Shown: positions 1 to 21,255 of the stretch, one piece after another
Numbering within the stretch: position 1 is the stretch's first letter
Layout of the letters: each line of letters starts with the position of its first letter
Assembly: GCA_937888365.1 (NCBI GenBank)
Contig: CALBFA010000098.1
Location: forward strand, 1 to 32,888
Reading direction: 5' to 3'
Length of the DNA: 32,888 bases
From: an uncultured Fidelibacterota bacterium
Lineage (GTDB): Bacteria > Fidelibacterota > UBA8477 > JABMPR01
The notes under the pieces: model-generated
Told to the model about the DNA's origin: nothing
The model's database searches: none
What the model saw: the letters and a program-made list of their open reading frames with translations, nothing else
Made by a program: the position numbers and the translations under genes

Positions 1-332
<332 letters not shown>

Positions 333-343
<11 letters not shown>

Positions 344-380
344 TTATTATTAAATTATTAGATCAGGTTTTTCTTTTAAA
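333..380 (+). promoter_or_regulatory. Stem plus T-rich run in the 23S-5S spacer
   Basis: The last bases of 23S (333-342, core ACTTGATC) can pair with 361-370 (core GATCAGGT) over 8 to 10 base pairs with one or two G-U pairs, enclosing an 18-nt AT-only loop. A run of mostly T (366-377) follows. In the mature rRNA the same 3' strand should pair with the 5' end of 23S, so this hairpin would compete with that helix. It could be a processing structure or a weak terminator between 23S and 5S. Only the base pairing is seen; the role is inferred. Confidence 0.35.
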
Positions 381-420: not shown

Positions 421-538
421 TTTTCGGTGACTATTGCGTAAAGGTAACACCCGATCCCATTCCGACCTCGGAAGTTAAGATTTACAGCGCTGATGATACT
501 GCCTCGTAGGAGGTGGAAAAGTAAGACGTCGCCGAGAA
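421..538 (+). rRNA. rrf: 5S ribosomal RNA
   Basis: The terminal helix is visible: TCGGTGAC at the 5' side (424-431) pairs with GTCGCCGA at 528-535. The conserved loop with CCGATCCCATTCCGACCTCG and GAAGTTAAG lies at 451-479, and GATGATACTGC near 492-502 fits the loop E and helix IV region. The length of about 118 nt is normal. The exact ends are uncertain by 2-3 bases. It lies in the usual place after 23S and is followed at once by a terminator. Confidence 0.95.
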
Positions 539-543
539 ACTAT

Positions 544-573
544 AAAGGCTCCTTTAACGGAGCCTTTTTTATT
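544..573 (+). terminator. Rho-independent terminator of the rRNA operon
   Basis: A perfect 9-bp stem, AAAGGCTCC (544-552) with GGAGCCTTT (559-567), has a six-base loop, TTTAAC, and runs into a T tract at 565-570 with further T-rich sequence. It starts only a few bases after 5S, as expected for the end of an rrn operon, and separates it from the protein genes downstream. Confidence 0.93.
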
Positions 574-618
574 TCTAGCTTGGAAACTATATAAAATTAG
601 GTAAATTTTACTCACAAT

Positions 619-646
619 TTGACCTATAACACGACTTCTATAGAAT
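619..646 (+). promoter_or_regulatory. Sigma-70-type promoter for the envelope gene block
   Basis: TTGACC (619-624, five of six matches to TTGACA) and TAGAAT (641-646, five of six matches to TATAAT) are separated by 16 bases. Transcription would begin near 653, giving a leader of about 30 nt before the ATG at 682, which has its own GAGGAG. It lies directly downstream of the rrn terminator, a natural place for a new promoter. The -35 box covers a TTG that could be misread as a start codon of the first gene. Confidence 0.6.
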
Positions 647-681: not shown

Positions 682-1809
682 ATGAGACGTATAAAAATAG
701 TTCTGATGATTTTATTAATGGCCATTGCATTGCAGGGCCAAACTATTGTAGTAAACGCTGAAGTTGATCTTGATGAGTGGGATATTATTAATTTAACAGA
801 TTTTGACTTTAATGATGGAAGAAATAACCCTTTAATATTTTCCTATCGTATGTCAGCCCCAATTGGTACTGTAATAACTTTTCATTTATCACTTGATGCA
901 AATGTGCCTTCTCTCAGTATCAACAATGAAATATTGCTTGATGCTTCAATGACTTTTACGATGCAAAGCGATATTGTTATATCAAGTCGAGATTTGGATT
1001 ATGGATTAGCGGGTAGAGGATTTAACGACGAAATGGGCAACCCAGTTGATATCGTTGACTTTAATTTAACAAGTATGTTTACTGAGAATCCTGACCGTGC
1101 TCAAGAATTACAGGGTGTTGTCCTTTCTTCTGGCAGCTTACCCGCTGGCGAATATCATTACCATGTTGATGTTATCGGTGGTGATGTTCAGTACCTAAAT
1201 TTTTCCAACGACAGATTATTCCACATCGTGAGCCCATCATCCATCGATTTACAATTTCCTATTGATAATTATCAATTTATCGGAGTTTCTTATCCCGTTT
1301 TTGAATGGACGTCTCAAGGTTGTGACAATTATGCAATTCGTGTGTGTGAATTTGATCCAAGTATTCATAGTTCCTATGATGATGCCATGCAATCCCAGTC
1401 CATGTTACCCTATCCAGATAATGGTGGATTTAGTCCAATTTCTACAAATTCACGATTTGACTATAGTGATGGATATGGTCGTACTTTAGAAATTGGAAAA
1501 ACTTATGTGTGGCAAGTTCAGAAAAATTGCAATACAACGGGTGCTGATCTAGAAATATTTAGCCCTATTTACTCTTTTAGTATTGGACAAAATGACGATA
1601 CAGTATCAGAATGTATTCAACAGATTCGTGATGCAATTGGCAATAATCAATATAATGCTCTGTTTGGACCGAATGGCCCTCTCTCCGGTTTTAATGAGTG
1701 CCCTGAGTTCTCAATCGATGGCGAACCTGTTTCAGCAAATGAATTTGCAGCTATTATTATGCAAATCGTCACAGGTGGCTATAACCTAGAAAGCATTACA
1801 ACACAGTAA
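682..1809 (+). CDS. Secreted protein with an Ig/FnIII-like domain, function unknown
   Basis: This is a 375-residue exported protein of unknown function. The start at ATG 682 is chosen because GAGGAG at 670-675 is correctly spaced. A longer frame would begin at TTG 619, which is the -35 box of the likely promoter. The N terminus MRRIKIVLMILLMAIALQGQ is a signal peptide. Residues of about 185-305 resemble an Ig/FnIII-type fold: the PVFEWTSQGC and TYVWQV segments match the pattern often seen in FCB surface proteins. Four or five cysteines in the second half could form disulfides. I see no type IX secretion C-terminal signal and no lipobox. It is the first gene of a run with a FecR protein and a beta-barrel protein, which suggests a periplasmic or surface partner of these. 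Confidence 0.8.
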   Translation: MRRIKIVLMILLMAIALQGQTIVVNAEVDLDEWDIINLTDFDFNDGRNNPLIFSYRMSAPIGTVITFHLSLDANVPSLSINNEILLDASMTFTMQSDIVISSRDLDYGLAGRGFNDEMGNPVDIVDFNLTSMFTENPDRAQELQGVVLSSGSLPAGEYHYHVDVIGGDVQYLNFSNDRLFHIVSPSSIDLQFPIDNYQFIGVSYPVFEWTSQGCDNYAIRVCEFDPSIHSSYDDAMQSQSMLPYPDNGGFSPISTNSRFDYSDGYGRTLEIGKTYVWQVQKNCNTTGADLEIFSPIYSFSIGQNDDTVSECIQQIRDAIGNNQYNALFGPNGPLSGFNECPEFSIDGEPVSANEFAAIIMQIVTGGYNLESITTQ

Positions 1810-1819
1810 GGATTATATT

Positions 1820-2512
1820 ATGCATCTATTTATTAAAAAATTAGTATTATTATCTCTTGTAGCTTTTGTATTTGGACAAAATAATGTGGCTCTTATCACA
1901 AAAGTTAGAGGTGAAATATTTCATAAGGCTCACGATTCGGATGAATATGCAAGCGCTGTTAAATCTGGAACTCAATTAAAGAATAAAGATTGGATTAAAA
2001 CAGGGGCGGATGGATATATTGCTATTTTTTTCTTGGACGATAAAAGTCAACTAAAAATTAAACAAGATACTGAAATACAAATACTTGGTTCTGAGGAACG
2101 TGGTAAAATTAATAAAACCATTTCTTTAGATTATGGACAAGTAAAAGCAAAAGTTGAAAAGCAAAAAGGTGAATTTAAAATCGTGACGCCTACTTCTGTG
2201 GCTTCTGTCAAAGGTACTGAGTTTTGGATGATTTCCGAGGACGGTGTCGATCAAATCATCGGAATACAAGGTGTCGTTGAGGTTGAGAATAGATTTAGTG
2301 GTGGTGTTGTGCAGGTGACTACAAATCAAACAGCCAATTCAACTCCTGATGGAGGTCTTGATACCGAAGAGACTGAAGGAGCTGATATACCAGATGACCC
2401 CGATGACGATACGGATGATGATGCAGGGAATACCAATTTACATCAATTAAGAATTAAATTACAAAATAGCTCAAATGAAGAACGCTTTATCATAATAGAG
2501 TACTCAGAATAG
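1820..2512 (+). CDS. Secreted FecR-domain protein
   Basis: This 230-residue protein has a signal peptide ending in FGQ, then a FecR domain over about residues 20-150. The family hallmark VASVKGTEFW is at about 127-136 and the LKNKDWIKTGADG segment sits earlier. The start ATG 1820 follows AAGGA overlapping the previous stop. Unlike classical FecR sigma regulators it has no N-terminal cytoplasmic part and no membrane helix, so it should act in the periplasm or be exported. After the FecR domain comes a very acidic, low-complexity stretch (about 175-202, mostly D and E), then a short C-terminal segment rich in beta-strand residues. FecR proteins of this secreted kind often neighbour CHASE2 cyclases, and one lies two genes downstream. 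The ligand is unknown. Confidence 0.88.
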   Translation: MHLFIKKLVLLSLVAFVFGQNNVALITKVRGEIFHKAHDSDEYASAVKSGTQLKNKDWIKTGADGYIAIFFLDDKSQLKIKQDTEIQILGSEERGKINKTISLDYGQVKAKVEKQKGEFKIVTPTSVASVKGTEFWMISEDGVDQIIGIQGVVEVENRFSGGVVQVTTNQTANSTPDGGLDTEETEGADIPDDPDDDTDDDAGNTNLHQLRIKLQNSSNEERFIIIEYSE

Positions 2513-2523
2513 GACATAATATC

Positions 2524-5319
2524 GTGCTGAAATTCAAACACCGCATGAATCTAGTCGTGGGCATTTTGCTAATTGCTTTGACGACTGGTTTTGGACAAAC
2601 AATGTCAGGTGAACTGATTCACTTACCACCGAAATCTGCTGTTGAAGGATCAAGTATCGAAATATCAGCTATTTATACTGGAAATTTAAATGAAGTGACA
2701 GAAGCTAAGCTCATGTATCGTTTAGCTGGACAAATGGGTTACCTTGAGATCCCTATGAATATAGGTGACTTAAAAATCGTTGGATCAATACCAAGCGAAA
2801 TAGTCGGTTCACCAGGCGTTGAATATCTTATGATTTTACTGTTGAGTGATGGTGGGATGGTAGCATATCCAAATAACGAAGATCCACTTAACAATCCTGT
2901 ATTTTTACCCGTGGCAAAACCAACGGGTGAAAAAAGCGAAATGATTTCGGAAACAGAAAGAGAATACAGCCAAAATATCATAATTTTAACGCCAGAAGGT
3001 GGAGCGGTCATCCCTTTTGGAGAAGAAATATTAATAGCAGTATCTCTCTTTAATTTAGATAATGTTGATCCAAACCTTGTAAATGTATTTTTTGATAACA
3101 GAGATGTGAGTGCTTATGCCACAATTGGAAAAGATGTCGTTACCTACACGCCAACACAACTAAATGTGGGTGAACATACTGTATTTATTGAAGCATCAAA
3201 TATTTACGGCGTAAAACTATCTACTATCTCTTGGAAATTTCGCATTCAAAGTGCAGCTCAAAAAATGTTTGATATGAAATTAATCGGTTATTTAAATACC
3301 GCTTATCGACTTGATCAAATTCACATACTCAACACCGATACAACTCAGAATCAGAAGTATACTATAAATACTAACCAATTGAGAAGAATGGATGGAAGCA
3401 CTGAAGCCGATTTTAAATGGGCAAAAGTTAAAGGTGTTATTAATATTTCAAATCTTGAAAGAGATGATAACCAACCCCAAAATAGATATTCTCTGAAAAT
3501 TAGGAATAATTACCTGCGATATACGTGGGGTGACGAAACGCCGATGCTAAATCGTCTCGGTCTATGGGGAAAACGTGTCCGAGGTCATTCAGTTGATCTA
3601 AGATTTAAATGGGTTAATCTAGAATATGTAACTGGTGAATTAACACGCCCCCTTACGGGATTGGCAAGTTTTGATACGACACAATTTGAATGGTCCCGAA
3701 CAGGTTATACATATTCAAGAAAATTAACAGGCGTTCGTCCAAGTTTCGGAAGTGGAAGAACATTCCAATTTGGCACTTTTTATGTACACAGTAGAGACGA
3801 TGTAGAAAGTGTTAAATTACATCCACAATGGTTGAAGGATGGTTACCTAAATCGACTCGGTGAATATGGATTACCAATCAACGATCCTGCAACCTCATAC
3901 TCACTTGAACAAATTGTCTTATATGGTGATACAACAGATGTGTTTTCACGATTTAGTGGCGCTAATCCCCAGGATAACCTTGTACTTGGCACTGATATGA
4001 AGCTGGCTCTTGATAATCATCGTCTCTCTATTACGATGAGTGGTGCTGTATCATTGTTTAATTCAAATATAAGATCAGGTCCATATTCAAGAGCTGAGCT
4101 TGATACATTTAGCCTATTCGGTGATACCCTCTTAAATGACACTATTTCAATTGGCGATATTGATTTCGCATTTAGTCAACTTGATGATATGCTTGACAAA
4201 CCTGGACTCCGATTCTTACTCTCTAGCGATAATCAATTTGATCCCTCTGGCCCTATGGCTGATTACTTTATCCTCAATCAATCCATACGCATGCCATATG
4301 ATTACGTTAAATTTGGTAATGGATTCATAATGCAATCATTTCCAAGTCTCGGTCTTCAATTTAATGCCAAATTAAACTACTTTAGGAATTTTATTGACAT
4401 CGACTGGAAACATATTGGTCGAGAATATACTGCGTTTGGTAGCCCGCTTATCGGTTTCGATTATGCTGGCTGGACCATTAGCGATAAAGTTCGACTGCTA
4501 AGGAATATGTTATTTTTAAATCTAGGCTACGAAAATATCACTAAAAACGTCGGAAGTATCAACACCTTCGCCGATCCACAAACACTCGTTAATAGTTATT
4601 CTTTAGGCTTTACATTTAATCCCGGCACAGGATTACCAACACTTTCCACAAGTATAAAAAGCTACAAACGTGACAATAATATTGACACACTTAATATTGA
4701 CACTACAATAGTCGACGGTGTTGTAAATTTGATGATTACCGATCCTCGAGAGCTGAATCAGACACTTACCAGCACTTTAAGCTTAAGCTATGAGTTTGCA
4801 CTTGCTTCTGTTAAAAACATGATTTCAGCTAATATTATGAGCAGCTCTAGAAATGATTTACGGCTCGGCAGAGAGGGTGAATTGCAAAGCGCTAAACTAA
4901 CTGGATTGAATCTCAGAACTGAATGGAAGATCCCGCTTATTACAAATGTCGCTTTAAGGTTAAATAATTCGCAACTCTTAAATGAATCAAGTCTGGACTA
5001 TCAAAAAACAAGTTATACGACTTTTGATGTCTGGGCTGGTTACAAAATGTATAAAAATAAACTTCAATTGAGATCTGGATATCGTCAGTTACAACTGAAT
5101 AAAATTAAATATGTCGATGCTATTCTTGTTGATTATGATCAATCCCAAAACAATATTGATTTTAGAGTCCAATATAATTTCCCCAATGTTACCAAAGGAG
5201 CAACAGTCCTAAAAAATAAACTAGTTGCGCAATTTGAAGCCCGAAATTATAAGAGCAAAATAGAGAACTATAATTACAATGACCGTATGGTACATGTTCG
5301 ATATGAGCTATCATTTTAA
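2524..5319 (+). CDS. Outer-membrane beta-barrel protein with N-terminal Ig-like domains
   Basis: This is a 931-residue exported protein. GTG 2524 is taken as the start because AGGA at 2511-2514 is well placed; ATG 2545 in the same frame has no Shine-Dalgarno sequence. A signal peptide ends near TTGFGQ. Two Ig-like regions seem to follow, one at about 30-110 and a second at about 150-240, where the VTYTPTQLNVGEHTVFIEA segment is typical. The remaining roughly 650 residues show alternating hydrophobic and polar residues, many aromatic residues at strand ends, and a final strand ending in phenylalanine (HVRYELSF), the usual mark of an outer-membrane barrel. No TonB box or plug is recognised. The family is not recognised; a surface sensor or porin working with the FecR protein is an inference. 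Confidence 0.75.
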   Translation: MLKFKHRMNLVVGILLIALTTGFGQTMSGELIHLPPKSAVEGSSIEISAIYTGNLNEVTEAKLMYRLAGQMGYLEIPMNIGDLKIVGSIPSEIVGSPGVEYLMILLLSDGGMVAYPNNEDPLNNPVFLPVAKPTGEKSEMISETEREYSQNIIILTPEGGAVIPFGEEILIAVSLFNLDNVDPNLVNVFFDNRDVSAYATIGKDVVTYTPTQLNVGEHTVFIEASNIYGVKLSTISWKFRIQSAAQKMFDMKLIGYLNTAYRLDQIHILNTDTTQNQKYTINTNQLRRMDGSTEADFKWAKVKGVINISNLERDDNQPQNRYSLKIRNNYLRYTWGDETPMLNRLGLWGKRVRGHSVDLRFKWVNLEYVTGELTRPLTGLASFDTTQFEWSRTGYTYSRKLTGVRPSFGSGRTFQFGTFYVHSRDDVESVKLHPQWLKDGYLNRLGEYGLPINDPATSYSLEQIVLYGDTTDVFSRFSGANPQDNLVLGTDMKLALDNHRLSITMSGAVSLFNSNIRSGPYSRAELDTFSLFGDTLLNDTISIGDIDFAFSQLDDMLDKPGLRFLLSSDNQFDPSGPMADYFILNQSIRMPYDYVKFGNGFIMQSFPSLGLQFNAKLNYFRNFIDIDWKHIGREYTAFGSPLIGFDYAGWTISDKVRLLRNMLFLNLGYENITKNVGSINTFADPQTLVNSYSLGFTFNPGTGLPTLSTSIKSYKRDNNIDTLNIDTTIVDGVVNLMITDPRELNQTLTSTLSLSYEFALASVKNMISANIMSSSRNDLRLGREGELQSAKLTGLNLRTEWKIPLITNVALRLNNSQLLNESSLDYQKTSYTTFDVWAGYKMYKNKLQLRSGYRQLQLNKIKYVDAILVDYDQSQNNIDFRVQYNFPNVTKGATVLKNKLVAQFEARNYKSKIENYNYNDRMVHVRYELSF

Positions 5320-5393
5320 AACCAATAGGTAAAAATCTTCTGGATTATATAAAAAAACATTACATAAGTTTCGTTTTATCAGTTATTTCTGTA

Positions 5394-7763
5394 ATGATAG
5401 TTCTTGTACTTCAAGGACTTGGCGTTTTTAATTCCCTCAATTATATGGTCTTAGATTACTCCTATCGATTGAGAGGATCCATGAGTAGCTGGTCAGCCCG
5501 CGATGGCGTACCATCCGACTCAATGAATGTAGTATTAATAGATGTCGACAATGAAACGTACCGATTGTTGGGCTCTGAAGGATGGCCTTATCCAAGAGGT
5601 AAAGTTTGGTCGAATATTATTCGGAATCTAACGGATGCTGAAGCAAAAGTAATTGTATTCGATATTGAGTTTGACTCTCGTGATGCCTATACAGCAAAAA
5701 TTTTGAGTGTTTTTAATAATACTTTACCTGATGGCTTTCTCGACGGTGATTCAATGTTGGCCGAGTCTATCCTCTATGCAAAAGAAAATGGTACCGCCGT
5801 TGTTATGCCGTCTACTATTAAAGTGGAACCCAGCAGCCAACCCCCTCAACATTTGGTTGTATCAAACTCCCATATTCGTCGTGCTGATCCCGATCATGGC
5901 CTTGTAGATGTTTTTGATGACGGTGATGGCTTCACTCGACGCTATTCTATATTCAATGCAATGGTTCATGAGGCTGATATTTGGCACTTGTCTTTAGGCA
6001 TGAAGGCCGTTAAACACTATTTAGAAATACCCGATTCTGTGAATTTGCGATATGATGAAGAAACAAGTTCTTTTTCGTACGGCCCCTTAACGATTCCATC
6101 TTACGGATATTATAATCAATTTATTTTGAACAATATTTATGGACCACCTTCTCACGCTAAAATTGGCACATCAGATGCCTGGAAAACGTTCCCTCGTTAT
6201 CCACTTTCCAGCGTTATTGACACAGAAGAATTTGACCTTGACGAGTTCGAAGAAGACACAGATTGGATGTCAAAATTCAATCCCTTTAGCTCATTCAATT
6301 TGATGATGCAAACTATTGATCCTGATTATGAGATTCCTGAAAGTCCCTTTAAAGATAAAATATGTATGATTGGTGTATCCGTAGAAGTATTTCATGATTA
6401 TAAAAAAACAGCTTTTTTTAATTATCTAGGAGTTCCAACTTTGATGCCTGGATTTGAATTCCATGCTAATGCAGTGCAAACTTTACTCGATCAAAATTTT
6501 ATTAAAGTTTATGGTGGTACCTTAGAAACGACAAGGCAGTCTTTTTTACCAATGGCCCTACTCATTTTAGGGCTGTGTCTTATAGCTTTTCTTTTCCTAA
6601 GTATTTTTGATCCTCTTATGGGAGGTATCGGTGTAATTATCGAAATCTTTATTTTCGTGAGTATGGCAATCGGTGCATTTACACAAGACTATCTCTGGTT
6701 AATTAAATTAATATCTGGGAATTCGAATAAAATTAATGTCCCGGGATTTGGTGAATCGTTAGTGATACCCGTTATTGCTCCAATCGCCGGGATATTAGGC
6801 ACTTACGGTATAAATATGTTGTATAAATTTATCCTTGAGCAAAAGGATAAACGCTTTCTAAAAAATACTTTTGGAAACTATATATCTCCCGAGCTCATTG
6901 ACCAAATGTACGAATCAAAACAAGCTCCTGAATTGGGTGGAGAAGAGGGTTTTAGGACGGCATATTTTACAGATATTCAAGGATTTTCGACCTTCTCTGA
7001 GAAACTTACACCGACTCGTCTCGTAGATTTATTGAATGAATATTTGTCTGCCATGACCGATATTTTAATCGATAATAACGGTACACTCGATAAATACGAA
7101 GGGGATGCTATAATTGCGTTTTTCGGTGCTCCAATACACATGGAGGATCACGCATACAAGGCCTGCCTGACTGCTATGCAAATGCAAAACAAACTGATAG
7201 AACTACGGGAAAAATGGACTAGCGAAAATGAGAAATGGCCAGATATCGTTCATGACATGCGAATGCGAATTGGTGTGGCATCAGGTCGAATGGTTACAGG
7301 GAACATGGGTTCAAAAATGAGAATGAATTACACGATGATGGGTGATTCAGTCAACACAGCTGCAAGGCTAGAATCTTCGGCTAAACAATATGGTGTTTAT
7401 ACTCAAACGATAAGTCAAACGCATGATGAAACACCTGATGCTTTCCTATGGCGACGATTGGATAAAGTTATAGTGATGGGGAAAAAAGAACCAATTGAAA
7501 CGTATGAACTTCTAAATTTTATTGAAGATGCCACGGATCAAGAGAAACAACTGGTTCAAAAATTTCACGAAGCATTAGAAATATATAATTCCCAAGATTG
7601 GGATCGCGCAATTCAAGCATTTGGGAAGGCTAACAAGCTAGAAGATCATTTCGTAGGTCGAAAAACGACACCTTGTTTAGTCTATATTGAGCGCTGCGAA
7701 ATTTTCAAAGAAAATCCTCCTGGCAATGATTGGGACGGATCATGGACCCTCACCTCTAAATAA
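5394..7763 (+). CDS. CHASE2-domain class III adenylate/guanylate cyclase
   Basis: The protein is a membrane cyclase making a cyclic nucleotide, probably cAMP. It has an N-terminal membrane helix, an extracytoplasmic CHASE2 sensor domain to about residue 370, two or three helices (about 383-480), and a cytosolic class III cyclase domain. Catalytic features are present: metal-binding Asp in FTDIQGFS (about 527), K567 and D571 in KYEGDAIIAFFGAP, and YTMMGDSVNTAAR at 646-658 with N654 and R658. The coordinates use the first ATG, but the frame is open back to 5307. That extension encodes a basic stretch followed by the missing half of the first membrane helix, so the true start is probably ATT 5313, ATA 5325 or CTG 5340. 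A C-terminal part of about 90 residues follows the cyclase domain. Confidence 0.93.
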   Translation: MIVLVLQGLGVFNSLNYMVLDYSYRLRGSMSSWSARDGVPSDSMNVVLIDVDNETYRLLGSEGWPYPRGKVWSNIIRNLTDAEAKVIVFDIEFDSRDAYTAKILSVFNNTLPDGFLDGDSMLAESILYAKENGTAVVMPSTIKVEPSSQPPQHLVVSNSHIRRADPDHGLVDVFDDGDGFTRRYSIFNAMVHEADIWHLSLGMKAVKHYLEIPDSVNLRYDEETSSFSYGPLTIPSYGYYNQFILNNIYGPPSHAKIGTSDAWKTFPRYPLSSVIDTEEFDLDEFEEDTDWMSKFNPFSSFNLMMQTIDPDYEIPESPFKDKICMIGVSVEVFHDYKKTAFFNYLGVPTLMPGFEFHANAVQTLLDQNFIKVYGGTLETTRQSFLPMALLILGLCLIAFLFLSIFDPLMGGIGVIIEIFIFVSMAIGAFTQDYLWLIKLISGNSNKINVPGFGESLVIPVIAPIAGILGTYGINMLYKFILEQKDKRFLKNTFGNYISPELIDQMYESKQAPELGGEEGFRTAYFTDIQGFSTFSEKLTPTRLVDLLNEYLSAMTDILIDNNGTLDKYEGDAIIAFFGAPIHMEDHAYKACLTAMQMQNKLIELREKWTSENEKWPDIVHDMRMRIGVASGRMVTGNMGSKMRMNYTMMGDSVNTAARLESSAKQYGVYTQTISQTHDETPDAFLWRRLDKVIVMGKKEPIETYELLNFIEDATDQEKQLVQKFHEALEIYNSQDWDRAIQAFGKANKLEDHFVGRKTTPCLVYIERCEIFKENPPGNDWDGSWTLTSK

Positions 7764-7833: not shown

Positions 7834-9399
7834 ATGGAAAAAAACAGTAACAAAGGTAGAATATTGTGGGCAGATGATGAGATCGAATTATTACGTCCAC
7901 ATAAAATATTTTTAGAGCAAAGAGGCTATGAAGTTTTCACTGTAACAAACGGTGCTGATGCAGTTGAAATTGTAAAATCAAAAGATTTCGATATCGTATT
8001 ATTAGATGAGATGATGCCGGGATTGGATGGTCTTCAAACCCTTGCACAGCTCAAAAGCATCAGACCTTCGCTTCCAGCAATAATGATTACGAAAAACGAA
8101 GAAGAATCATTAATGGAAGAAGCAATTGGGGAACAAATATCCGATTATTTGACAAAACCTGTGAATCCTTCACAAATTATTTCCGCTATAAAACGTATTT
8201 TAGACAAAACAAGAATTCGACAAAATGCTGTATCTGAAAAATATATAAATGCATTTAATGAATTAAATTTACAAATCGGCAATGATGTGTCAGCTAAAGA
8301 TTGGATAAAAATTCATCATCAACTCTCTAATTGGGAGCTTGATATTGAGGATTTCCCCGAATTGGGTTTCCAAGACATGCTGCAGCAACAGAAGAAAGAT
8401 GCGGATCTTGAATTTTCACGATTCATTCGGTCGAAATATGAAAAATGGGTAAATGGACCCTATGACCAAAGACCCATCATGGCTCCGGATGTGATCCGGA
8501 AATTTGTGAAGCCATTGCTTGAGAATGATAAAAAAGTGCTCTTTATCGTTATGGATTGCATGCGTTGGGATCAGTGGCTTACAATTGAAAAACTTCTTTT
8601 TCCAGAATTTCAAATCCGTCGAGATGGACAATATACCATATTGCCCACAACTACCGAATACAGCAGAAATGCTATGTTTAGTGGCTTATTCCCAGACGAT
8701 ATTGCGTCCCAACATCCAGATTGGTGGCATAATATTGACGAAAATAGTCTTAATGCCCATGAAGGTGATCTGTTAAAAGAGCAAATGAAGCGCCTTGGAC
8801 TTCATCAAAAACCAGGTCCAAAATATAAAAAAATCTATAATAATTCAGAAGGCGACCATTTTACAAAGAATTTTAAATCAATAGCTAATCATGATTTAAT
8901 AGCCCTCGTCGTGAATCAAATTGATTTATTAACGCATCATCGCACCGATTCATCAATACTGCAAGATCTTATCCCAAATGAAACAAGCTATCGTGAAATG
9001 GTGAGGACGTGGTTTAAAAATAGCTGGATATTTAATCTACTCCTCGAGGCAAAAAAATATAATTATACTATTGTAGTAACTTCTGATCATGGAAGTATTA
9101 AAGTTGAACATTCATCTGTTATCAAGGCTGATAGAGATGCTTCTGTAAATCTCCGTTTTAAACTCGGTCGTAATTTGCAGCCAAATCCAAAAGATGCTTG
9201 GTTATTTTCTGACCCCTCAAGAATCCGAATCCCCGTGAATAATAATAATGAAACAATTGCCATTGCGCTAAAGGACTATTACTTCCTTTATCCAAATAAT
9301 TTTCGAAAATACCAAACAAAATACGAAGATACCTATCAACATGGTGGTTTGAGCCTTTGGGAGATGATTACGCCGGTTGCGACTTTGACTTCTAAATAG
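7834..9399 (+). CDS. porX: PorX-like response regulator with PglZ phosphatase-like domain
   Basis: This 521-residue protein has a receiver domain at residues 9-125 with acidic D14-D15, phospho-acceptor D58 in LLDEMMPG and the conserved lysine in YLTKP. A helical linker follows, then a PglZ/alkaline-phosphatase-superfamily domain. Metal and catalytic positions are visible: D241 and D246 in VMDCMRWDQW, T272 in PTTTEYSRN, D418-H419 in SDHGS, and H503 in QHGGLSLWEM. The length and architecture match PorX of Bacteroidota, which regulates type IX secretion together with PorY and has reported phosphodiesterase activity on oligonucleotides. No PorY or other secretion gene lies in this window. It is immediately followed by tsaE, an arrangement I recall from Bacteroidota. 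The symbol is by family; its role here may differ. Confidence 0.92.
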   Translation: MEKNSNKGRILWADDEIELLRPHKIFLEQRGYEVFTVTNGADAVEIVKSKDFDIVLLDEMMPGLDGLQTLAQLKSIRPSLPAIMITKNEEESLMEEAIGEQISDYLTKPVNPSQIISAIKRILDKTRIRQNAVSEKYINAFNELNLQIGNDVSAKDWIKIHHQLSNWELDIEDFPELGFQDMLQQQKKDADLEFSRFIRSKYEKWVNGPYDQRPIMAPDVIRKFVKPLLENDKKVLFIVMDCMRWDQWLTIEKLLFPEFQIRRDGQYTILPTTTEYSRNAMFSGLFPDDIASQHPDWWHNIDENSLNAHEGDLLKEQMKRLGLHQKPGPKYKKIYNNSEGDHFTKNFKSIANHDLIALVVNQIDLLTHHRTDSSILQDLIPNETSYREMVRTWFKNSWIFNLLLEAKKYNYTIVVTSDHGSIKVEHSSVIKADRDASVNLRFKLGRNLQPNPKDAWLFSDPSRIRIPVNNNNETIAIALKDYYFLYPNNFRKYQTKYEDTYQHGGLSLWEMITPVATLTSK

Positions 9400-9413: not shown

Positions 9414-9854
9414 ATGTTTGAATACGAATTTAAAACAATCTCAATGCACGAAACGCAAAAAATAGCTCAGAAGTTGGGGAAACAACTTTTTGCTGGCGAC
9501 GTCGTCGCTCTCGTTGGAGATTTAGGGACAGGAAAAACAACCTTTTCACAAGGCGTAGCCAAAATAATGGGTATTCATGAACCAATTTCAAGTCCGACGT
9601 TCACGTATATTAATGAATATTTAGGTGAAAACTTTCGACTCATTCATATCGATGCCTATAGGATTGAAAAAAGTGAAGTCCTCATTAAAATGGGTCTATC
9701 AGATTACTATGAAGATTCCATCATTCTTATCGAATGGGCAAATCTTGTCCCAGATGCAATACCTGAAGAGGCTATTAGTATATTATTTACAGCAGGAGAT
9801 TCTTCGTCTTCTCGAACCCTTAAAATATTCTCATATCGAAAACTAAAACTATGA
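9414..9854 (+). CDS. tsaE: tRNA t6A synthesis ATPase TsaE
   Basis: This 146-residue P-loop ATPase acts with TsaB and TsaD in making N6-threonylcarbamoyladenosine at position 37 of ANN-decoding tRNAs. The Walker A motif GDLGTGKTTF is present, followed by SSPTFTYINEY and the HIDAYRI and IEWA segments typical of the family. The length is normal. The stop overlaps the start of tsaB by four bases (ATGA), so the two are probably translationally coupled. It starts 14 bases after the PorX-like gene and could be cotranscribed with it. Confidence 0.96.
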   Translation: MFEYEFKTISMHETQKIAQKLGKQLFAGDVVALVGDLGTGKTTFSQGVAKIMGIHEPISSPTFTYINEYLGENFRLIHIDAYRIEKSEVLIKMGLSDYYEDSIILIEWANLVPDAIPEEAISILFTAGDSSSSRTLKIFSYRKLKL

Positions 9855-20688: not shown

Positions 20689-21255
20689 ATGCGCGAATTT
20701 ACGGATGAACAATTAATAGCTAAATTTCAATCAGGCGATGAATTAGCCTTTATTGAATTAGTTAATCGTTATAAAGACCGACTTATCAATTTTGTATATG
20801 GCTTTGTTAAAAATTACAGTGACGCAGAGGATATAGTCCAAGACACTTTTTTAAAAGTTTATAAGAACAAACATGCCTATCGTGAGATTGCAAAATTCTC
20901 AACATGGCTTTACACGATTGCAGGCAATTTAGCTCGATCCCAACTGCGGAAAATAAAGCGTCGGAAAACATTTACAATGAGCCAACTATCCTATGATGAC
21001 AATGAATTTGATCCAAAGGATATGAGTCGAAGCCATACAGAAGTTTTGGATGATTCTTATGTTGCGCAGGAAATCAGGAAAGCTATTCAAGAACTTTCAG
21101 AACCTTTTAAGACAATTGTAATTTTACGAGATATTCAGGAACTTTCTTATGAAGATATGAGTAAAATTCTCGAGATTCCAATTGGAACTGTGAAATCCAG
21201 GGTGAATCGAGCAAGATTAAAATTGCAGAGCTTATTAAAACATCTAAAGGAGTAA
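20689..21255 (+). CDS. ECF-family RNA polymerase sigma factor (RpoE-like)
   Basis: This protein of 188 residues has sigma region 2 at about 25-95 (NFVYGFVKNYSDAEDIVQDT and FSTWLYTIAGNLARSQLR) and region 4 at about 130-188 (PFKTIVILRDIQELSYEDMS, IPIGTVKSRVNRAR). There is no region 3, as in ECF factors. It is followed by a membrane protein with a zinc-binding anti-sigma domain, so its activity is probably controlled by an envelope signal. Its targets cannot be read from the window. Confidence 0.95.
   Translation: MREFTDEQLIAKFQSGDELAFIELVNRYKDRLINFVYGFVKNYSDAEDIVQDTFLKVYKNKHAYREIAKFSTWLYTIAGNLARSQLRKIKRRKTFTMSQLSYDDNEFDPKDMSRSHTEVLDDSYVAQEIRKAIQELSEPFKTIVILRDIQELSYEDMSKILEIPIGTVKSRVNRARLKLQSLLKHLKE

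Follow-up and report, generated by a model that had tools for sequence, protein, structure and literature searches.

The window analyzed here is a stretch of 32,888 nucleotides (nt) from an uncultured Fidelibacterota bacterium (contig C98 of a 2.53 Mb genome, labeled G000, whose named relatives are Candidatus Neomarinimicrobiota, the SAR406 clade), and it contains four consecutive genes, designated A, F, B, and C, that encode an immunoglobulin (Ig)-like protein, a FecR-domain protein, an Ig-barrel protein, and a CHASE2 cyclase, respectively. These four genes fairly probably form a dedicated signaling cassette leading from the outer membrane to cytoplasmic cyclic AMP (cAMP), one that would work like the NsrA–CyaK system of Sinorhizobium meliloti with an unrelated barrel. 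The four genes are kept together across at least five bacterial phyla, and their order is conserved far beyond chance.

Neither A nor B gave a family-level match in Pfam or NCBIfam. In the AlphaFold2 model of A (predicted local distance difference test (pLDDT) score of 86.0), two Ig-like domains are followed by a small C-terminal helical domain, and a structure search with this protein returned generic Ig/fibronectin type III folds and nothing more specific. The AlphaFold2 model of B (pLDDT 81.5) shows two Ig-like domains and then a large barrel of approximately 26 strands, as counted from the secondary structure of the model. A structure search with B retrieved generic barrels (MtrB, ushers, TonB receptors, and porins) with low template modeling (TM) scores, and no TonB, plug, or STN match was detected in the window's B or among 27 B proteins. 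The assignment of B as a relative of TonB receptors, ushers, MtrB, or NsrA was rejected, the fold matches being generic and the comparison with NsrA by hhalign being negative. According to an alignment of its relatives, F comprises a signal peptide, a FecR domain (PF04773, 47 bits versus a curated cut-off of 24), an acidic linker, and a conserved two-strand C-terminal tail, with neither a cytoplasmic anti-sigma part nor a further transmembrane helix. No gene for an extracytoplasmic function (ECF) sigma factor adjoins the cassette, the nearest in the window being located at approximately 20689–21255. The first-pass annotation of this DNA had described four exported or membrane proteins in this order, among them an exported FecR-domain protein without a sigma partner and an Ig plus outer-membrane barrel protein, and the Pfam matches and AlphaFold2 models bear out this domain content and gene order.

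C contains CHASE2 (112.9 bits) and Guanylate_cyc (80.9 bits) domains, both scoring over the curated cut-offs, within a layout of one transmembrane helix, the CHASE2 domain, three helices, the cyclase domain, and a C-terminal tail. The active site of the window's C is complete—that is, with two metal-binding Asp residues, a Lys/Thr pair, and the transition-state Asn and Arg residues—and the catalytic residues are kept in every aligned C copy covering those positions. Because the Lys/Thr pair is typical of ATP-using enzymes, the product predicted from these residues is likely to be cAMP rather than cGMP; three proteins binding cyclic nucleotide monophosphates are encoded in the window's genome. 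With respect to the N-terminus, the listed start codon of C (ATG 5394) falls within the first transmembrane helix and thus cuts this helix off, no in-frame ATG, GTG, or TTG occurs between the stop codon at 5304–5306 and ATG 5394, and the C genes of relatives start approximately 15 codons earlier. The true start is therefore likely to be non-canonical (e.g., CTG 5340), or else the sequence contains an error. In a tree of CHASE2 proteins, all 38 of the 38 B-linked cyclases fall into one clade (support 0.744), distinct both from cyclases that have an SH3-M48 peptidase as neighbor and from a second type that adjoins FecR in the absence of B. The former group represents another CHASE2 cyclase, which is paired with an SH3-domain M48 metallopeptidase (L033:289-3723 and L214–L219) and is present in the window's genome as well.

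The distribution of the cassette was followed through B. A search with a broad B alignment profile and a single-protein search of genome contigs gave no matches, and a closer B alignment succeeded. B was present in 45 of the 60 relatives searched and in 124 of 150 genomes of the phylum, representing 64 of 70 genera. A set of 104 non-redundant B loci was annotated with profiles built from the window's relatives, and the counts that follow refer to testable loci, namely those extending far enough. Among Neomarinimicrobiota-like loci, F adjoins B in 63 of 65, both A and F are present in 55 of 56, and C adjoins B in 52 of 60. Similarly high values were obtained for the B loci of other groups (F beside B, 35/35; A and F, 12/13; C, 31/33), the groups carrying the cassette being named KSB1, Ignavibacteriales/Melioribacter, Bacteroidetes metagenome-assembled genomes (MAGs), Cloacimonadota, and Latescibacterota. 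The flanking genes outside the phylum are wholly different from those in Neomarinimicrobiota, and within the phylum they differ in some families as well (loci L049, L069, and L070); in family f6, the cassette is located away from ribosomal RNA (rRNA) and from porX, the gene for a response regulator of type IX secretion. Since the order is kept in these different surroundings, A–F–B–C itself is the conserved unit, and not inherited synteny. A search of related genomes for the four-gene order, which the first-pass annotation had proposed as a check, hence had a positive outcome, with the order being kept through Neomarinimicrobiota and recurring with other flanks in four other named phyla or groups.

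Regarding the surroundings themselves, the cassette lies directly 3′ of the 23S–5S rRNA genes and 5′ of porX–tsaE in most Neomarinimicrobiota genomes. The same cassette and porX–tsaE synteny were also observed in a MAG named Flammeovirgaceae (L133), which is probably misnamed because its cyclase falls inside the Neomarinimicrobiota clade. In three Ignavibacteria loci (L223, L226, and L227), inspection by eye showed convergent lptF/lptG-like genes after the cassette and a small DUF3467-like gene before it.

Co-occurrence and co-divergence, also proposed as checks for FecR, the barrel, and CHASE2, were found for F–B and B–C. With B scored as present at E < 1e-40 across the 150 genomes, CHASE2 occurs in 112 of the 115 genomes with strong B and in 12 of the remaining 35; genomes of 0.8–1.0 Mb belonging to family f7 contain neither. 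Partial Mantel tests, performed on 30 genomes in which the set of ten genes was complete and after removal of the species signal (accD, guaA, and surE), gave correlations of 0.32 for A–F (p 0.011), 0.37 for F–B (p 0.0005), and 0.44 for B–C (p 0.0005). Neither tsaE nor tsaB gave a significant partial correlation with A, B, or C, and the p-value for F–tsaE was 0.06.

The closest precedent with experimental support is found in S. meliloti, in which the outer-membrane protein NsrA is required to convey an outside signal to cAMP production via the CHASE2 cyclases CyaK and CyaD1/CyaD2 (PMC7529298, PMC13001267). A search of plasmids with CHASE2 only did not locate CyaK, and the corresponding locus on pSymB (L242) was found via the cyclase domain. 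There, an open frame of 1,228 codons (approximately 1,200 amino acids from its Met) that encodes a FecR domain (57.4 bits), tetratricopeptide repeats (TPRs), and a C-terminal barrel region in one chain is situated directly upstream of a CHASE2 cyclase gene, an order that we take to be that of nsrA and cyaK. The pSymB protein is identified here, from its position, length, and domains, as the putative NsrA; its length and the position of its barrel (600–1200) match those of NsrA (PMC7529298). The FecR part of this protein aligns with F at a probability of 97%. The cassette thus resembles NsrA–CyaK in grouping, within a single unit, a FecR domain with an outer-membrane barrel and a class III cyclase of the CHASE2 type. 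The two systems differ in that the FecR domain, TPRs, and barrel share a single chain in NsrA, whereas F and B are separate genes in the cassette, and also in that Ig-like domains take the place of the TPRs and the separate Ig-like protein A is added. For NsrA–CyaK, the relay from an outside signal to cAMP has been established by experiment (PMC7529298, PMC13001267).

Given that FecR domain and barrel form one chain in NsrA, a protein of shown function, and two chains here, B may serve to sense, F (and probably A) to couple, and C to produce cAMP. In such a relay, B would be the outer-membrane receptor, with its barrel facing the outside and its two Ig-like domains hanging in the periplasm; the soluble periplasmic F and the soluble Ig-like A would form the link between B and the CHASE2 domain of C, which lies in the periplasm; and F, probably together with A, would alter the activity of the cytoplasmic adenylate cyclase of C and so the level of cAMP. 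We infer the physical contacts, the direction of signal flow, the ligand, and cAMP (not cGMP) as the product. By analogy with NsrA–CyaK, the cassette has the appearance of an outer-membrane-to-cAMP relay that is split over several chains and was assembled independently. The first-pass annotation had suggested a relay from the outer membrane to a cyclic nucleotide; conservation, co-divergence, and the S. meliloti precedent lend support to this suggestion, the relay itself staying a proposal, and the same precedent makes the idea less new than had been supposed.

Several observations weigh against such a relay. Comparison of the NsrA barrel with B by hhalign yielded a probability of 0.2%, with no detectable relation, and the support for the clade of B-linked cyclases is moderate. 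F and C, which would be in contact, show no excess co-divergence (partial correlation, −0.05), while that between F and PorX (0.41, p 0.0005) is as strong as those of the cassette pairs. In addition, the excess co-divergence could partly reflect shared recombination or transfer of adjacent genes; because adjacent genes can share transfer events, co-divergence supports an interaction without proving it. Copies of A–F–B without a neighboring C also exist (L093, L100, L107, L109, L115, and L128), most genomes with a C-less B holding a second, complete A–F–B–C. Finally, B relatives in one lineage (L234, L235, L236, and L240) lack A, F, and C and instead adjoin a small TPR gene and, in most cases, a HIT-family gene. 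Separate conserved partners, which the first-pass annotation had named as evidence against a common unit, are thus found for B in this lineage, with the linkage elsewhere being near-universal.

Two of the C-less loci have features of their own: in L100:3330-9627 and L107:9842-16541, B is devoid of the first Ig domain and is followed by a stand-alone receiver domain and, farther on, by a protein that was recognized by eye as GAF plus HD-GYP-like.

Other explanations for the gene arrangement have to be weighed. The cassette might monitor the state of the outer membrane or of type IX secretion rather than an outside ligand, with B and A sensing load, F and C relaying it as cAMP, and PorX belonging to the same circuit. 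This explanation, which we regard as unlikely, would account for the position of porX 3′ of C in most Neomarinimicrobiota loci (43 of the 53 testable ones), the co-divergence of F and PorX, and the 66 type IX sorting-tail matches in the window's genome, as well as for a surface protein with type-IX-tail-like matches encoded directly 5′ of another FecR–CHASE2 pair (L210 and L212). However, porX is a neighbor in only one of nine testable loci outside the phylum, and that one probably belongs to a misnamed Neomarinimicrobiota MAG; PorX is also present in genomes without the cassette or CHASE2 (genus g17 of family f6), C and PorX show no co-divergence (partial correlation, −0.10), and the position of porX could be old synteny with rRNA and tsaE. 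In a wider form, which we hold to be rather improbable, a widespread system of the Fibrobacteres–Chlorobi–Bacteroidetes (FCB) superphylum would translate outer-membrane or type IX status into cAMP, and PorX would be an effector linked to it in Neomarinimicrobiota. If true, the involvement of type IX secretion and PorX would join secretion control to cyclic-nucleotide signaling. The occurrence of 66 sorting-tail matches and a PorX equivalog in a Neomarinimicrobiota genome contrasts with a 2024 paper in which type IX secretion was described as exclusive to Bacteroidetes (PMC10951265). Doubtful, too, is the idea that B forms a channel for transport or secretion, that A is its partner or substrate, and that F–C is a separate FecR–CHASE2 pair that regulates it or shares its operon: B is flanked by F in 98 of 100 testable loci and by C in 83 of 93, B–C co-divergence is the strongest among the tested pairs, and FecR domain and barrel share one chain in NsrA. 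The structure matches of B are indeed transporters (porins, TonB receptors, ushers, and MtrB), but generic barrels with low TM scores; a channel would also be consistent with B lacking A, F, and C in one lineage and with FecR–CHASE2 pairs lacking B in the same phylum (L210, L211, L212, and L220).

Vertical inheritance of a whole rRNA-to-glmS block could in principle have held the four genes together passively, as the block (rRNA, A, F, B, C, porX, tsaE, tsaB, accD, surE, and guaA) is often intact in Neomarinimicrobiota and the raw tree distances of all its genes are highly correlated. The same order in unrelated surroundings in other phyla and in family f6, together with the location of A–F–B–C away from porX in genomes G036 and G360, makes this very unlikely, and it was rejected because the non-syntenic cassettes outside the phylum contradict it. 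Classical FecI–FecR–FecA cell-surface signaling, with the sigma factor lost or distant, resembles the cassette in combining a periplasmic FecR domain and an outer-membrane barrel in one unit. Unlike that system, the cassette has no sigma factor, anti-sigma part, or TonB receptor, and its output is a cyclase: F carries a signal peptide and no anti-sigma part, the unit contains no ECF gene, B has no plug, STN, or TonB-receptor match, and C is the constant partner. This explanation was likewise rejected, the domain layout contradicting it, and is considered extremely improbable.

The proposed outer-membrane-to-cAMP relay can further be compared with reported FecR and CHASE2 gene clusters. A gene cluster of Campylobacterota combines a CHASE2 adenylate cyclase with a FecR-domain outer-membrane protein, a cAMP phosphodiesterase, and a TPR protein; no Ig-like protein or separate Ig-barrel was reported for it (PMC9239204). 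The BiofilmReg operon of Burkholderia has a gene for a secreted FecR-domain protein beside a CHASE2 sensor gene, but differs in having a histidine kinase and response regulator as output, a LysM domain on the FecR protein, and no barrel (PMC5192318). In magnetotactic bacteria, mtxA is followed in its cluster by a conserved gene for a CHASE2 adenylate cyclase; the passage concerned discusses MtxA alongside TPR proteins and describes no FecR domain or barrel (PMC4439547).

A second module in the phylum consists of a FecR protein beside a CHASE2 cyclase without a barrel (L210:3064-6249, L211:3333-6547, and L212:1-6484), and a further FecR–CHASE2 pair without B is found in L220. In L210 and L212, this pair is preceded by a large surface protein, the C-terminus of which matches FlgD_ig, CHU_C, or Por_Secre_tail. 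A reusable FecR–CHASE2 core with an exchangeable outer-membrane input would fit the B-less pairs in the phylum, in Campylobacterota, and in Burkholderia. On plasmids of Sphingobium (L243:4807-9458) and Azospirillum (L244:4759-8636), a CHASE2 cyclase lies beside or near a ShlB/FhaC two-partner-secretion outer-membrane transporter, which is possibly another outer-membrane input for CHASE2.

The features surrounding and composing the cassette are listed in the table. A, F, B, and C are tightly packed on the + strand, with gaps of 10, 11, and approximately 20–30 nt. The terminator-like hairpin at 544–567, 3′ of the 5S rRNA gene, separates rRNA from the cassette. The first-pass annotation had placed the four genes behind one good promoter; the score of the promoter-like site is, however, not above chance, there being 32 promoter-like sites versus 34.8 expected from shuffles. 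It had also ended the unit at 7763; the four genes on one strand stand, but porX starts 70 nt 3′ of C with no terminator-like site between them, so that the run appears to continue into porX. A housekeeping run of tsaE, tsaB, rimI, accD, surE, guaA, and glmS lies 3′ of porX. The sequence that precedes A in the sister genus (L034:580-700 and 11 related loci) shows 86% identity over approximately 120 nt and carries another promoter-like arrangement, TTGTTT-N17-TAAATT; the window's own leader differs. This sister-genus leader contains a hairpin around CGCACGCAGA...TCTGCGTG with weak covariation (changes on both sides in 5 of 26 predicted pairs) and has no match in Rfam.

Table. Features in and around the A–F–B–C cassette of the window.
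Feature	Position	Strand	Basis
23S rRNA, 3′ end	1..344	+	Rfam LSU_rRNA_bacteria, 335.8 bits
5S rRNA	423..537	+	Rfam RF00001, 81.3 bits
Intrinsic terminator-like hairpin	544..575	+	9-pair stem, then T run
Promoter-like TTGACC-16-TAGAAT	619..646	+	sigma-70-type scan
Gene A, exported protein, 375 amino acids	682..1809	+	two Ig-like domains, then a small conserved helical domain at the C-terminus; no family in Pfam
Gene F, secreted FecR-domain protein, 230 amino acids	1820..2512	+	PF04773, 47 bits; alignment of relatives
Gene B, outer-membrane protein, 931 amino acids	2524..5319	+	two N-terminal Ig-like domains and ~26-strand barrel; no Pfam family
Gene C, CHASE2 class III cyclase	5340..7763 (start uncertain)	+	PF05226, PF00211; complete catalytic set
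porX, receiver-PglZ response regulator of type IX secretion	7834..9399	+	NF052313, 640 bits (cut-off 300)
tsaE, start of conserved housekeeping run, outside the cassette	9414..9854	+	PF02367

An outer-membrane FecR/barrel protein feeding a CHASE2 adenylate cyclase is already known; to judge from the literature searched, the division into four genes, A and B as unnamed families, and the spread through the FCB superphylum are new. In that literature, passage of a surface signal across two membranes to a CHASE2 cyclase is experimentally established only in S. meliloti. Because the FecR, barrel, and linker parts are individual proteins, in a unit retained by several phyla that are mostly uncultured, the steps of the relay can be separated and tested one by one. 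Two protein families absent from Pfam, A and B, thereby gain a candidate function. The comparisons suggest that a FecR domain and CHASE2 together form a periplasmic connector that can be reused, the outer-membrane input of which has been replaced repeatedly. For bacteria of the SAR406 clade, the cassette would offer a candidate path linking the cell surface with cAMP.

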